DNA from: an uncultured Oscillospiraceae bacterium
GTDB lineage: Bacteria > Bacillota > Clostridia > Oscillospirales > Acutalibacteraceae
Direction: 5' to 3'
Length of the DNA: 21,818 nt
Assembly (NCBI GenBank): GCA_900539845.1
Contig: UQDP01000026.1
Span: 1-21,818 of the forward strand
Made by a program: the position numbers and the translations under genes. This document shows, in pieces, positions 296 through 7,355 of the stretch (the stretch's first letter is position 1; the number at the start of each line of letters is the position of its first letter). The notes below the pieces were generated by a model. That model worked only from the letters and a program-made list of their open reading frames with translations. It did no database searches and was not told where the DNA came from.

Positions 296-554
296 AAAAA
301 TGTGAAACACGTTGACGGGAACAAAAAGCACTCTTCACCTTTTTTCAGAGAATTGCCGGTCGGTGCAAGGCATAAAAAGAAAGCGTGTAATATCCTCCCC
401 GAGTGGCTGCGTTGAAATTTCAGTAGGCGCGGACGGCAGCATCCGTTAGAATTGCAGCGAATGATTGTTCGCATGAGTGCATCTTTTGATGAATAAGAGT
501 GGTACCACGGTATTGATTATCGCCTCTTTGCTATTTTGCAAAGAGGCGTTTTTT
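296..554 (+). promoter_or_regulatory. T-box leader (tRNA-sensing riboswitch), specifier probably Ile (ATC)
   Basis: The leader senses the charging state of a tRNA and decides whether the operon is read. Elements seen: Stem I lower helix (CAC 308-310 with GTG 403-405, CGGGA 316-320 with 396-401); the AGAGA bulge at 347-351; a distal loop containing GGTGCAA (362-368) closed by GCC/GGC; Stem III (ACGG 433-436 with CCGT 443-446); the T-box sequence AGAGTGGTACCACGG (496-510) with the UGGU bulge (500-503) that pairs with a tRNA NCCA end; and an antiterminator in which AAGAG (495-499) pairs with CTCTT (524-528), competing with the terminator at 521-548. The specifier loop 3' side is AATATCC (389-395). 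By distance to the following helix the specifier is ATC at 392-394 (Ile). Shifting one base gives TAT (Tyr, 391-393). C-ending specifiers are usual, which favours Ile. UGGU fits the A discriminator of both tRNAs, so it does not decide. Confidence 0.92.
521..554 (+). terminator. T-box terminator hairpin
   Basis: A perfect 11-bp stem (521-531 with 538-548, loop TATTTT) is followed by six T. Its 5' arm includes CTCTT (524-528), the same bases used by the antiterminator, so the two structures are mutually exclusive. It lies 30 bases before the first operon start codon. Confidence 0.93.
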
Positions 555-584
555 ATGTCTTAATTTCAGAGAGGAGCTAATTTT

Positions 585-1157
585 ATGCAAAACTGTGTTG
601 AGATCCGCTGGCATGGCAGGGGAGGACAGGGCGCAAAAACAGCAGCGCTTCTTCTTGCCGACGTTGCCTTTAAAACAGGTAAGTATGTTCAGGGCTTTCC
701 CGAATACGGTCCTGAAAGAATGGGCGCGCCCATTACGGCTTATAACCGAATCAGCCCGCAGGAAATAAGGGTACATTCAAATATATATCATCCCGATTTT
801 GTTGTCGTTGTTGACGAGGGTCTGCTCGATACGGTGCATGTGACGGACGGTCTGTCCGAAAACGGGGCAATACTTGTTAATACGGCCAAGAGCAAGGAAG
901 AGATTATCCCGAAACTGAACGGGTATAAAGGCGCGGTTTACACGATTGACGCCAAAAAAGTTTCAAAAGCCTGCCTTGGCAGATATTTTCCCAACACGCC
1001 GATGCTTGCGGGTATCGTCAAGGTGTCCGGCGTTATGGAATGGGAATCTTTTCATAAGGAAATGAAGGCTTCGTTTATGCATAAATTCTCTTCAAAGCCT
1101 GAGGTCATTGACGGCAATATGAAAGCGCTAGAAATGGCGTTTGATGAAGTCAGATAG
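585..1157 (+). CDS. porG: 2-oxoacid:ferredoxin oxidoreductase, gamma subunit
   Basis: Gamma subunit of a four-subunit, CoA-dependent 2-oxoacid:ferredoxin oxidoreductase (pyruvate or branched-chain 2-oxoacid type), a cytoplasmic enzyme that interconverts a 2-oxo acid plus CoA and an acyl-CoA plus CO2 using ferredoxin. The 190-residue length is normal. Family signatures seen are GRGGQGAKTA (residues 11-20, the glycine-rich start of this domain) and EYGPERMGAP (40-49). ATG at 585 has a GAGGAG ribosome site at 571-576 and is the first gene after the T-box terminator. The symbol names the subunit family only: substrate preference cannot be read from this subunit. The T-box in front argues for an amino-acid-biosynthetic direction. 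Confidence 0.92.
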   Translation: MQNCVEIRWHGRGGQGAKTAALLLADVAFKTGKYVQGFPEYGPERMGAPITAYNRISPQEIRVHSNIYHPDFVVVVDEGLLDTVHVTDGLSENGAILVNTAKSKEEIIPKLNGYKGAVYTIDAKKVSKACLGRYFPNTPMLAGIVKVSGVMEWESFHKEMKASFMHKFSSKPEVIDGNMKALEMAFDEVR

Positions 1158-1168
1158 GAGGGTGAATC

Positions 1169-1471
1169 ATGAAATCAGATGTGAATAAGCTGAATCTTGA
1201 ATGTAAATGGCAGGATCTTACGGAGGGTATGCAGATCTACGGCGAGGCAACCTCGCTTGAATTTAACACCGGCGAGTGGACTTCGGTAAAGCCGGAGCTT
1301 CATGAGGAGCTTTGTGTTCACTGCCTTATGTGTGTTCCTGTTTGTCCAGACAGTGTTATTTCCGTCAAAGACGGTAAAAGAGGTCCGTTTGATTATGATC
1401 ACTGCAAGGGCTGCGGCATTTGCGTGAAAGCCTGCCACACCGGCGCGATCACGATGAAAGGAGTAAAGTGA
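1169..1471 (+). CDS. porD: 2-oxoacid:ferredoxin oxidoreductase, delta (ferredoxin) subunit
   Basis: A 100-residue subunit carrying two [4Fe-4S] clusters that pass electrons between the catalytic beta subunit and external ferredoxin. Two motifs are complete: C49-x2-C52-x2-C55-x3-C59-P and C79-x2-C82-x2-C85-x3-C89. In the second, the usual Pro after the last Cys is His, which is common. The first 45 residues form the extension typical of delta subunits. The ribosome site GGAGGG lies in front of ATG 1169, 11 bases after the gamma stop. The alpha subunit begins one base after this stop, indicating tight translational coupling. Confidence 0.93.
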   Translation: MKSDVNKLNLECKWQDLTEGMQIYGEATSLEFNTGEWTSVKPELHEELCVHCLMCVPVCPDSVISVKDGKRGPFDYDHCKGCGICVKACHTGAITMKGVK

Positions 1472-1472
1472 T

Positions 1473-2654
1473 ATGCCAAGAAAAGACCGATTAAGCGGAA
1501 ATGAGGCGGTGGCAGAAGCGCTCCGCCAAATCAATCCCGATGTTATGGCTGCGTTCCCAATCACTCCGTCAACGGAGATACCGCAGTATTTTTCAAAACT
1601 CGTTGCAAACGGTCAGGTGGATTCTGAATTCGTTCCCGTTGAATCCGAGCACTCCGCAATGTCCGCCGTAATAGGCGCCGAAGCTGCAGGCGCGCGTTCC
1701 GTAACCGCCACATCATCGGCAGGTATGGCGCTGATGTGGGAAGAACTTTACCTTGCCGCTTCAAACAGACTGCCTTGCGTGCTCACTCTTGTGAACCGAG
1801 CGCTTTCCGGCCCGATCAATATTAACTGCGATCACAGCGATTCAATGGGCGCACGAGATTCCGGCTGGATTCAGATATACGCTGAAAACAATCAGGAAGT
1901 CTATGATAATCTTGTTATGGCTTATAGGATCGGTGAGCATAAAGATGTAATGCTGCCCGTTATGATCTGCCAGGACGGTTTTATAACCTCTCATGCCGTT
2001 GAAAATATCGAGCTTCTTGATGATGAGGCTGTAAAGAAGTTTGTCGGCGAATATAATCCCGAGCACTGCCTTTTGGATCCCGAGTGTCCGATGGCTGTCG
2101 GTCCTTACAGTGTAACCAATTATTATTTTGAGGCAAAAAGGGCGCAGGCGGAGGCACTGAAACATGCAAAGCGGGTTACGCTTGACGTTGCAGCCGAATA
2201 TGAGAAGATAAGCGGCAGAAAATACGGTCTTTTTGAAGAATACAAAATGGACGATGCCGAAGAAGCCGTTGTTATAATCGGTTCAGCCGCCGGCACAACC
2301 AAAGAGGCTGTTGATGAGCTGAGAGCGCAGGGCAAAAAGGTAGGACTCGTAAAGATCCGCCTATTCAGACCTTTCCCTGCAAGTGAGATCGCGGAAAGCC
2401 TTAAAAACTGCAAAGCCGTTGCTGTTATGGACAGAACGGAAAGCTTTAACGATAACTGCGGTCCGCTCGGTTCGGAAGTTACAACTGCTTTATACAGAGC
2501 CAAGGCAGATACCCTCGTGCTTAACTATGTTTACGGTCTTGGCGGCAGAGATGTTCGTGTTGACGATATGAAAGGCATTTATGCCGAGCTTGAGAAAACA
2601 GCCGAAAGCGGCAGGGTCGATGAACCGTACCGCTATATGGGCGTAAGAGAGTAA
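1473..2654 (+). CDS. porA: 2-oxoacid:ferredoxin oxidoreductase, alpha subunit
   Basis: Alpha subunit (393 residues, normal length) with the pyrimidine-binding TPP domain followed by the transketolase C-terminal-like domain. Seen are the FPITPST motif (residues 28-34), PVESEHSAM (55-63), TATSSAGMALMWEE (78-91), NRALSGP (108-114) and RDSGWIQIYAENNQEVYDN (128-146). T31 and R109 sit where, from memory, pyruvate enzymes place substrate contacts, but related branched-chain enzymes keep similar residues, so they do not settle the substrate. The loop after NRALSGP reads ININCDHSD, where I recall NIWNDxQD-like sequences in characterised pyruvate enzymes. The ribosome site AAAGGAG (1457-1463) lies inside the delta gene. 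The sequence is PorA-like rather than like the distinct VorB type, so this could be a pyruvate or a branched-chain enzyme. Confidence 0.93.
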   Translation: MPRKDRLSGNEAVAEALRQINPDVMAAFPITPSTEIPQYFSKLVANGQVDSEFVPVESEHSAMSAVIGAEAAGARSVTATSSAGMALMWEELYLAASNRLPCVLTLVNRALSGPININCDHSDSMGARDSGWIQIYAENNQEVYDNLVMAYRIGEHKDVMLPVMICQDGFITSHAVENIELLDDEAVKKFVGEYNPEHCLLDPECPMAVGPYSVTNYYFEAKRAQAEALKHAKRVTLDVAAEYEKISGRKYGLFEEYKMDDAEEAVVIIGSAAGTTKEAVDELRAQGKKVGLVKIRLFRPFPASEIAESLKNCKAVAVMDRTESFNDNCGPLGSEVTTALYRAKADTLVLNYVYGLGGRDVRVDDMKGIYAELEKTAESGRVDEPYRYMGVRE

Positions 2655-2667
2655 GGAGGCGGCTTTT

Positions 2668-3609
2668 ATGTATAATTTCAAAGAATTTGTAGGCAGGGAA
2701 GACCGCCTTGCGGGCGGCCACAGAATGTGCGCAGGCTGCGGCGGCACGATTGCCGTAAGAAATGTTTTAAAGGCTATCAAGCCCGGTGATAAAGCTGTTG
2801 TCGGCAACGCAACAGGCTGTCTTGAAGTTTCTTCTTTCCTTTATCCGTACACTGCTTATAAAGACAGCTATATCCACAACGCCTTTGAAAACGCCGGCGC
2901 GACCATGGCAGGCGTTGAGAGCGCTTATAATGTTCTGAAGCGCAAAGGCAAGCTTGACGATACATATAAATTCATAACCTTCGGCGGCGACGGAGGTACT
3001 TACGATATCGGATTTCAGTCTCTTTCCGGCGCGATGGAAAGAGGTCACGATATGGTCTATGTGTGCTACGATAACGGTGCGTATATGAATACGGGCATTC
3101 AGCGTTCTTCCGCTACGCCGATGTTCGCCGACACCACAACAACACCGGTCGGCAAGGTATCAAACGGTAAACCGCAGTACAGAAAGAACCTTGCCGCTAT
3201 CATAGCGGAACATCAGGTTCCTTATGTTGCGCAGACTACTTTTGTTCAGAATTTTAAGGATCTTCATATCAAGGCTGAAAAGGCAATCTATACCAAAGGT
3301 CCTGCATTTCTGAATATCATGGCTCCCTGTCCGCGCGGCTGGCGTTATAACACTTGGGATATTATGGAAATCTGCAAGCTTGCTGTTGAAACACGCTATT
3401 GGCCTTTGTTTGAGGTAAAGGACGGCGTGTGGACACTTAACTATGAGCCGAGAAAGTATGTTCCCATCGAGGAATGGCTCGTTAAGCAGGGCAGATTCAA
3501 GCATATGTTCAAGCCGGACAACGAGTGGATGATCGAGGCGTTTCAGAAAGAGGTAGACCGCCGCTGGGATGAGCTTCTCCGCCGCTGCACCCGCCATATG
3601 GGCGCTTAA
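2668..3609 (+). CDS. porB: 2-oxoacid:ferredoxin oxidoreductase, beta (TPP-binding) subunit
   Basis: Catalytic beta subunit, 313 residues, binding thiamine diphosphate and one [4Fe-4S] cluster. Seen are CAGCGGT (C21, C24), NATGC (C51) and MAPCPRGW (C221), which are the four cluster cysteines of PorB proteins. The TPP/Mg motif runs from GDG (107-109) to YDNGAYMNTG (134-143). Ribosome site AAGGAGG (2653-2659) lies 8 bases before the start, 13 bases after the alpha stop. As last gene of the operon it is followed by a strong terminator. All four subunits are intact, so the complex should be functional; no separate maturation or ferredoxin gene accompanies it. Confidence 0.94.
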   Translation: MYNFKEFVGREDRLAGGHRMCAGCGGTIAVRNVLKAIKPGDKAVVGNATGCLEVSSFLYPYTAYKDSYIHNAFENAGATMAGVESAYNVLKRKGKLDDTYKFITFGGDGGTYDIGFQSLSGAMERGHDMVYVCYDNGAYMNTGIQRSSATPMFADTTTTPVGKVSNGKPQYRKNLAAIIAEHQVPYVAQTTFVQNFKDLHIKAEKAIYTKGPAFLNIMAPCPRGWRYNTWDIMEICKLAVETRYWPLFEVKDGVWTLNYEPRKYVPIEEWLVKQGRFKHMFKPDNEWMIEAFQKEVDRRWDELLRRCTRHMGA

Positions 3610-3633: not shown

Positions 3634-3663
3634 GATCCTCCGCTCGCCGGAGGATCTTTTTTT
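3634..3663 (+). terminator. Intrinsic terminator of the oxidoreductase operon
   Basis: A perfect 9-bp stem (GATCCTCCG/CGGAGGATC) with a five-base loop is followed by seven T, 24 bases after the beta-subunit stop. Confidence 0.93.
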
Positions 3664-6282: not shown

Positions 6283-6312
6283 ATGGTTTGAAAAAATTCA
6301 AGAGGTCTAGTG

Positions 6313-7023
6313 ATGAACGAAAAAAGTAAAGCGGCAACAATAAAATATGCTTTTAAAAAATCTCTGCCGGTCCTTTTCGGATATCTTTTTCTCGGTTCGG
6401 CGTTTGGCATAATGCTTTATGACGCCGGGTATAACTGGGTTTGGGCAATTCTGATATCCGTTGCTGTGTATGCCGGTTCGGGTCAGTTTCTGCTTGTGTC
6501 GTTGTTGTCATCAGCAGCAAGTATCCCCACTGTTGCCATGATGACTCTTTTTATCAATTCACGCCACATGTTTTACGGGCTTTCACTTATAGATAAATTC
6601 AAAGCTGGCAGGTGGCGGTATCCTTTTATGATCTTTACGCTTACTGATGAAACCTATTCCGTCAATATTTCCGTTCACAGCGTTCCGAAAAACGTGGACG
6701 AGCCGCGCGCGCGGTTTTTGATCGGCGAGCTTGACCATTTATACTGGATTGCCGGCTCTGTTATCGGCTCACTGCTGGGTCAGAATCTGCCGATAGATTT
6801 TACGGGGATCGACTTTTCGATGACAGCGCTTTTCACGGTTATATTTGTTGATTTGATCGTCGATACAAAAAACAGGATATGCGGCGCCGTGGGATTGTTC
6901 TGCGCGTTTATCTGCCTTATGATCTTCGGTGCGGACAAATTCCTTCTGCCCGCGCTTATTCTTACGGTCCTTCTGCTCGTTGGCGCGAAACCGTTTCTTG
7001 ATAAGAAGGAGGTCGAAAAGTAA
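6313..7023 (+). CDS. azlC: AzlC family branched-chain amino acid exporter, large subunit
   Basis: Membrane subunit of the two-part AzlCD exporter, which in other bacteria exports branched-chain amino acids or analogues. Seen are LPVLFGYLFLGSAFGIML (first helix, residues about 18-36), VYAGSGQFLLVSLL, LFINSRHMFYGLS and TLTDETYSVN, all typical AzlC motifs, and about seven hydrophobic helices. The length of 236 residues is normal. ATG 6313 is preferred: AGAGG (6301-6305) lies seven bases upstream, while the GTG at 6310 is too close. The stop overlaps the azlD start (TAATG). The cargo is inferred from the family. Confidence 0.92.
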   Translation: MNEKSKAATIKYAFKKSLPVLFGYLFLGSAFGIMLYDAGYNWVWAILISVAVYAGSGQFLLVSLLSSAASIPTVAMMTLFINSRHMFYGLSLIDKFKAGRWRYPFMIFTLTDETYSVNISVHSVPKNVDEPRARFLIGELDHLYWIAGSVIGSLLGQNLPIDFTGIDFSMTALFTVIFVDLIVDTKNRICGAVGLFCAFICLMIFGADKFLLPALILTVLLLVGAKPFLDKKEVEK

Positions 7024-7355
7024 TGCCTCTTTCCGTTAAAGATACTTTGATTATCGTAGCCGTTGCCGCAGCGTGTACATTCGCAACGCGCCTTGTGCCG
7101 TTCGTGCTTTTCAGCGGCAAAAAAGAACCGCCGAAGTTTGTGCGTTATCTGGGCGGCGTGCTGCCGGTGGCTATCATCGGTGTTCTGATTGTCTACGGTG
7201 TCGGTGACGTCAGGGACAGCGGCATTTACGATCTGATTCCTAAGCTCATAGCTGTGGCGGCAACCGCGCTTGTGCATCTGTGGAAGAGAAACACACTGCT
7301 CAGTATAGCCGTAGGCACTATCGGATATATGTTGCTGATAAATTTTGTTTTTTAG
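7023..7355 (+). CDS. azlD: AzlD family branched-chain amino acid exporter, small subunit
   Basis: A 110-residue membrane protein with four hydrophobic segments, the small partner of AzlC. The N-terminal stretch FATRLVPFVLFSG and the following VRYLGGVLPVAIIG match the conserved AzlD start region. Its ATG overlaps the azlC TAA by one base, so the two are translationally coupled at equal dosage. A new promoter candidate follows within six bases of its stop. Confidence 0.92.
   Translation: MPLSVKDTLIIVAVAAACTFATRLVPFVLFSGKKEPPKFVRYLGGVLPVAIIGVLIVYGVGDVRDSGIYDLIPKLIAVAATALVHLWKRNTLLSIAVGTIGYMLLINFVF

Follow-up and report, generated by a model that had tools for sequence, protein, structure and literature searches.

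A T-box leader with an isoleucine codon precedes a four-subunit 2-oxoacid:ferredoxin oxidoreductase operon in an uncultured Oscillospiraceae bacterium: a possible auxiliary route to isoleucine

Why would a 2-oxoacid:ferredoxin oxidoreductase be placed under the control of a tRNA, and which amino acid and which substrate would be concerned? The question is raised by contig UQDP01000026.1 of an uncultured Oscillospiraceae bacterium (assembly GCA_900539845.1), of which positions 1–21,818 of the forward strand were analysed (the window). In the window, a T-box leader directly precedes porGDAB (585–3609), in which the gamma, delta, alpha and beta subunits of such an enzyme are encoded in one operon. 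The leader is a canonical T-box, and it is the controlled operon that is unusual. The explanation that we favour, with a probability of about one half, is a reductive carboxylation controlled by isoleucine (Ile) tRNA, most likely from propionyl-CoA to 2-oxobutanoate, which would serve as an auxiliary route to Ile.

The leader upstream of porGDAB is composed of the following parts.

262–290, + strand: sigma-70 promoter, TTGACA-17-TATAAT, 12/12 consensus matches
303–530, + strand: T-box leader, RF00230 (cmscan 109 bits, gathering score 93, E 1.2e-23, full model 1–219)
392–394, + strand: specifier codon ATC (Ile), register calibrated on other T-boxes
496–510, + strand: T-box core AGAGTGGTACCACGG, a motif present in 48/50 close loci and in the window
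496–529, + strand: antiterminator (alternative fold), from the predicted fold and the Rfam alignment
521–548, + strand: intrinsic terminator, 11 pairs and T6, overlapping the 3' strand of the antiterminator

The Infernal search matched the full RF00230 model to the leader, and this is the only match above the gathering score within the window. The full stem I, the specifier loop, the T-box core, the antiterminator and the overlapping terminator are common to this leader and to the Ile-type T-boxes of RF00230, from which it differs by controlling a 2-oxoacid:ferredoxin oxidoreductase operon. The antiterminator uses as its 3' strand the stretch that forms the 5' strand of the terminator, and therefore the two folds are mutually exclusive. 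Among the leaders of close relatives (see below), the terminator is kept in all 49 that have a T-box core, the window counted, and compensatory changes are found at 34 of the 52 predicted pairs in an alignment of 21 of these 49. A looser promoter pattern, the chance rate of which is unmeasured, matches before 48 of the 49. The UGGU of the T-box core would pair with the acceptor end of a tRNA carrying A73. The discriminator base of tRNA-Tyr equals that expected for tRNA-Ile (A73).

The register of the specifier was calibrated on 45 T-boxes detected with the Rfam model in six sister genomes, six before por and 39 before other genes. The target genes were assigned by annotating representatives and by clustering the first downstream protein. 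The 39 T-boxes precede valS (six, GTA), pheS (six, TTC), leuA (six, CTC), cysE (five, TGC), thrS (five, ACC), asnS or aspS (four, AAC), trpE or trpB (six, TGG) and, in one case (L125, TGG), an unannotated frame; two aspS leaders have AAC (Asn) instead of an Asp codon. In 35 of the 39, the gene-fitting codon is located six bases before a conserved GAG, which is replaced by GAA in one cysE leader; the spacing is seven bases in four pheS leaders. Applied to the por leader, the six-base spacing gives ATC. The database convention given in the accessible text of PMC7778990, which places the specifier at a distance of two to four bases from the loop end, also yields ATC, and the same text describes AUC as the preferred Ile specifier. 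ATC is invariant in all 48 readable leaders of the clade, the window counted; the codons of L002, L003 and L049 were read by eye, and the leader of L037 is cut by a contig end. The preceding base is T in 47 of these leaders and A in one (L032). As this base varies, TAT is not the conserved unit. The predicted Ile specificity of the por leader is thus based on the sequences of many leaders. A preliminary description of this DNA had named a T-box with all core parts, mutually exclusive antiterminator and terminator folds, and an ATC specifier for Ile. These claims are borne out by the Rfam match (109 against 93 bits), by the strand overlap in the predicted folds, and by the calibration on 39 T-boxes together with the 48/48 conservation, respectively.

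A PorA scan of genome contigs gave 80 loci, 50 at 82–92% identity (the window clade, together with the window) and 30 at 68–72% (the near relatives). The T-box core is located about 1 kb before porA in 48 of the 50 close loci. The two exceptions are L039, which is cut by a contig end, and L004, which has no core. The PorA of L004 is 88% identical, and its leader is replaced, with a terminator-like remnant before porG (L004 4680–5110). The core was found in leader position in none of the 30 near relatives, of which four are untestable (L061 and L078 lack a genuine upstream stretch, and two others lack porG), so that 26 are testable.

An ATC T-box also precedes por in another, separate lineage of the same order, namely in all five genomes in which that lineage was found. 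In a sample of 197 genomes from the order of the sister genome G001, porG is present in seven, two of which belong to the window clade, and five of which show 64–71% identity. All five have a T-box before porG, with 44–77 bits, below the Rfam cut-off, and E values from 2e-7 to 5e-16. All five leaders read GAA-N-ATC-A-CTCC, with GAG six bases after ATC, and the base before ATC is A in three of them. In a class sample of 391 genomes, 71 have porG; upstream stretches were examined for 54 of the 70 others, and no T-box was detected in any of the 54 at E 0.01. The Rfam search at the gathering score covered nine T-box-less near relatives and L004. The order-level leaders score below the gathering score, and that threshold would therefore have missed them. 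A T-box sequence profile was trained on 51 non-por T-boxes taken with full flank. This profile finds the T-box in 48 of the 49 full-length upstream stretches of the clade (the miss is L004) and in all five order-level ones, with 26–118 bits, and its score is 0 or less in all 26 testable near relatives, in all 54 class rows and in G737, a genome with a related por.

The two T-box groups were compared in a quick tree of the gamma, alpha and beta subunits with only Shimodaira–Hasegawa-like approximate likelihood-ratio (SH-aLRT) support. The tree has 56 rows: 22 of the 51 clade members (hand-chosen, including L004), 28 of the 30 near relatives, the five order-level enzymes and G737. According to this tree, the window clade nests among T-box-less relatives, and a separate clade unites the five order-level enzymes with that of G737, in which no T-box is detectable before por. 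A tree uniting both T-box groups was rejected (p 0.000936) by the approximately unbiased (AU) test, in which the group also contained the T-box-less L004. As the T-box lineages are separate and the one-clade tree is rejected, the association either has two origins or has undergone several losses. In both cases, the Ile codon stayed with por.

The regulon was compared in sister genomes. Among the 45 T-boxes of the six clade genomes, an Ile codon occurs only in the six por leaders. In the five order-level genomes, the T-boxes of leuA-type genes have CTC as the codon (one leuA is confirmed). The identity of ilvB is confirmed in all five; its T-box codon reads GTC under the six-base rule in G063, G188 and G210; in G098, only the GAA-N context gives GTC, and the ilvB leader of G082 is ambiguous, CTC or ATC. 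The remaining order-level T-boxes were scanned for Ile codons, and not all of them were assigned. In G737, ATC T-boxes are located on ileS and ilvB. Judged by codon, por would be the only clearly Ile-controlled biosynthetic gene in the T-box-bearing genomes. The leucine codon stands at the first leucine step, the valine codon in most cases at acetolactate synthase, which the pathways share, and the Ile codon at por, as expected if the product of por serves Ile only.

What kind of enzyme is encoded? The operon is composed as follows.

585–1157, + strand: porG, gamma subunit, 190 residues (TIGR02175, 210.6 bits, cut-off 81.1)
1169–1471, + strand: porD, delta subunit (ferredoxin-like), 100 residues (TIGR02179, 88.1 bits, cut-off 60.05)
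1473–2654, + strand: porA, alpha subunit, 393 residues (NF040682 PorA, 507.1 bits, cut-off 550)
2668–3609, + strand: porB, beta subunit, 313 residues (NF008819 PorB, 338.3 bits, cut-off 405)
3634–3656, + strand: operon terminator, from a terminator scan

No strong terminator was found between the por genes, and two weak five-pair matches are located inside genes. For the alpha, beta and gamma subunits, the best specific-model scores are those of pyruvate synthase, and the models of 2-ketoisovalerate ferredoxin oxidoreductase (VOR) score lower for alpha and beta. The pyruvate-synthase equivalog cut-offs are not reached (PorA 507/550, PorB 338/405, PorC 194/270, PorD 81/120), and therefore the enzyme is not filed as a proven pyruvate synthase. 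The VOR cut-offs are not reached either (alpha 353/646 for PRK08366 and 136/399 for VorB, beta 289/405, delta 67/166). By these scores, the enzyme is closer to the pyruvate ferredoxin oxidoreductase (POR) models than to the VOR models. The few named database entries label these enzymes pyruvate ferredoxin oxidoreductase, and no 2-oxobutyrate synthase model is among the family-model matches of the operon proteins. The operon shares the gamma-delta-alpha-beta order, the best specific models and the pocket residues with the four-subunit POR, PorABCD; it differs from PorABCD in being under an Ile T-box and in scoring below the pyruvate-synthase equivalog cut-offs. The equivalents of Thr31, Arg114 and Ile123 of the Desulfovibrio single-chain enzyme (PFOR), which we take to be its pyruvate pocket residues, are kept in the alpha subunit of all 87 sequences. 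The clade is distinguished from the T-box-less loci by thirteen positions in alpha and eight in beta, all of which lie outside the set of pocket positions that was compared. As far as the aligned residues indicate, pyruvate and 2-oxobutanoate cannot be told apart by the pocket, and a branched chain is not suggested by it.

From the leader and the enzyme family together, we infer the response to tRNA-Ile, the direction of the reaction and the substrate as follows. Transcription would start just 3' of the promoter at 262–290 and yield the T-box leader. Uncharged tRNA-Ile (anticodon GAU) would pair with ATC at 392–394, and its free acceptor end would pair with the UGGU of the T-box core. The antiterminator, stabilized by the tRNA, would then allow RNA polymerase to continue into porGDAB, and with charged tRNA-Ile the terminator at 521–548 would form. 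At Ile shortage, the POR-family four-subunit enzyme would be made and would run reductively. Propionyl-CoA, CO2 and reduced ferredoxin would give 2-oxobutanoate as the most likely product. Then acetolactate synthase, IlvC, IlvD and a transaminase would convert 2-oxobutanoate to Ile, beside the threonine ammonia-lyase route. The reductive, biosynthetic direction is suggested by the fact that uncharged tRNA increases the expression of genes behind a T-box. Among the possible products, 2-oxobutanoate is favoured because it is a precursor that serves Ile only and that a POR-like enzyme could reach. The genes ilvB and ilvC were found in 28/28 genomes searched and ilvD in 27/27, one of which is a fragment below the cut-off. 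As acetolactate synthase, IlvC and IlvD are present, 2-oxobutanoate could be used.

The preliminary description had also proposed a four-subunit 2-oxoacid:ferredoxin oxidoreductase with a biosynthetic, reductive role. The first proposal agrees with the subunit-model matches, and the second is supported by the T-box logic. Its proposed product, 2-oxo-3-methylvalerate, is not upheld: the POR models outscore the VOR models for alpha and beta, the pocket is POR-like, and the valine and leucine T-boxes stand elsewhere.

The contexts of por in two T-box-less relatives point to 2-oxobutanoate and to acid activation, as far as gene order may indicate. In G737 (L343 1522–7901), porGDAB follows agcS (an amino-acid carrier), a Cys/Met-metabolism pyridoxal phosphate (PLP) enzyme and RidA. 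In L052 (3579–9702), the nearest T-box-less por, a CoA transferase (PF01144) is located 55 bases downstream of porB, and aspartate kinase is located upstream. The neighbours annotated in other near relatives are unrelated genes or an amino-acid carrier.

Several observations weigh against the carboxylation of propionyl-CoA. Threonine ammonia-lyase (ilvA type, TIGR01127) scores above the cut-off in all 34 genomes searched (28 + 6); the por route would therefore be auxiliary and not needed for 2-oxobutanoate. Pyruvate formate-lyase, above the cut-off in 15/21 clade and 3/5 order-level genomes, could do the same job. According to the accessible text of PMC7476758, this enzyme can form 2-oxobutanoate from propionyl-CoA and formate, and may explain part of the propionate-to-2-oxobutanoate data. 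The contexts of G737 and L052 are single cases in T-box-less relatives outside the window clade, and the Cys/Met PLP enzyme of G737, by its sequence scores, is below the cut-off of every gamma-synthase/gamma-lyase model. In the window clade, no conserved neighbour of por hints at propionyl-CoA; the most frequent neighbour is the unrelated GroEL, upstream in 26 loci. Finally, the pocket residues are identical in T-box and T-box-less enzymes, and therefore no substrate change is visible. A stricter proposal, in which 2-oxobutanoate would come from the reductive route alone, was ruled out by the presence of threonine ammonia-lyase in 34/34 genomes.

The best-surviving alternative, put forward in the preliminary description and considered unlikely by us, is that the enzyme carboxylates 2-methylbutyryl-CoA, derived from gut or rumen branched-chain fatty acids, to 3-methyl-2-oxopentanoate, one transamination from Ile. 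The record titles of the relatives often name gut or rumen samples. In the accessible text of PMC7356843, which cites Robinson and Allison 1969, 2-methylbutyrate is given as a rumen Ile precursor, and such a route would be Ile-specific if that acid were limiting. However, 2-methylbutyryl-CoA as the substrate would call for a VOR-like enzyme, and the VOR models score below the POR models for both alpha and beta. A VOR would also serve valine and leucine, yet the por leader senses Ile only. In addition, ilvB, ilvC and ilvD are kept, though this route would not need them for Ile.

Somewhat less likely again is a pyruvate synthase or general POR, for which the Ile T-box would act as a proxy for amino-acid shortage, for example to raise pyruvate for biosynthesis. 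The closeness of the PorA and PorB pyruvate-synthase models and the conserved equivalents of the three presumed pyruvate pocket residues are consistent with this role. Against it, the readable por leaders of both separate lineages all read Ile, and a separate single-chain PFOR is already present in 19/21 clade genomes. An oxidative enzyme that removes 2-oxobutanoate from methionine or threonine breakdown as propionyl-CoA would suit the por of G737, which follows the Cys/Met PLP enzyme and RidA. This role is improbable, since the T-box would then boost the destruction of an Ile precursor during Ile shortage, and the por of G737 is itself one of those with no detectable T-box. The weakest alternative, a TAT (Tyr) specifier with por unrelated to Ile, can be dismissed with little hesitation: TAT overlaps ATC in 47/48 readable leaders, and the seven-base spacing of the four pheS leaders would give TAT in por, but across the homologous operons TAT is ruled out by AATC in L032 and, in a GAA-N-ATC-A context, in three of the five order-level leaders, and the GAAAATCAC string of the order-level por leaders is also found in the ileS leader of G737.

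Some other T-boxes of the order-level genomes are described here. In G082, an additional ATC T-box (L315, contig C24) is located before a CstA-like transporter, which scores far below the model cut-off. By the six-base rule, ATG (Met) T-boxes are located in L292 (G063) and L311 (G082), before a 167-residue protein of one cluster. In G188 (L344, contig C17 33500–42500, minus strand; T-box in L284), a probable Tyr T-box has TAC by the six-base rule; the GAA-N reading would give ACT. The genes after this T-box encode an acyl-CoA ligase, a sodium/solute symporter, IorA, IorB and a PaaK-like phenylacetate-CoA ligase. The operon looks like one for the salvage of aryl acids through reductive carboxylation under Tyr control, a counterpart of Ile and por. 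In methanogens, an aryl-acid route operates with IorAB and phenylacetate-CoA ligase. Like the reaction proposed for por, it carboxylates an acyl-CoA reductively and yields the precursor of an amino acid; it differs from por in being aromatic, in using the two-subunit IOR and in its substrate.

The activity proposed for por is that of 2-oxobutyrate synthase, which we take to be EC 1.2.7.2. As cited in the accessible text of PMC7476758, ferredoxin-dependent carboxylation of propionyl-CoA to 2-oxobutanoate in anaerobes has been reported since 1969, and the 2-oxobutyrate synthase activity cited there from Buchanan 1969 and others is the same reaction as that proposed here. That activity comes from older biochemistry, whereas the present operon, with matching regulation, is offered as a candidate. 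No mention of an oxidoreductase was found in the accessible main text of the T-box papers PMC2494555, PMC7778990 and PMC11477304. In the accessible open-licence literature, with supplementary tables outside the search, no paper linking a T-box to POR was found; the papers in which both terms occur use them in unrelated places.

porGDAB is thus a concrete candidate gene set for a long-reported and genetically unassigned route to Ile. The Ile codons in the leaders of two separate lineages make the question of propionyl-CoA carboxylation directly testable, and a CO2-fixing ferredoxin enzyme is added to the T-box targets. The T-box codon also gives a clue to the substrate of enzymes that are named pyruvate ferredoxin oxidoreductase in databases. 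Tentatively, and with slightly less than even confidence, we suggest a wider view. Gut Clostridia may have twice put a POR-family enzyme under Ile-tRNA control, which would give a dedicated 2-oxobutanoate synthase and a CO2-fixing entry to Ile from propionate. Together with the Tyr/Ior-PaaK case, this would belong to a wider scheme in which short-chain and aryl acids are salvaged by anabolic 2-oxoacid:ferredoxin oxidoreductases under T-box control.

Some minor features were also observed. In the window, AzlC and AzlD, a branched-chain amino-acid transport pair, are encoded at 6310–7355 without an Rfam T-box. Between the window start and the T-box promoter, a lone open reading frame of 33 residues (MKDIYTKP...) is located at 104–205, and a terminator-like hairpin is located 3' of it, at 226–247. 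Upstream of the por of another genome, G561, several microRNA models match both strands of L218 135–265 with scores under their cut-offs, a pattern suggestive of a long inverted repeat.

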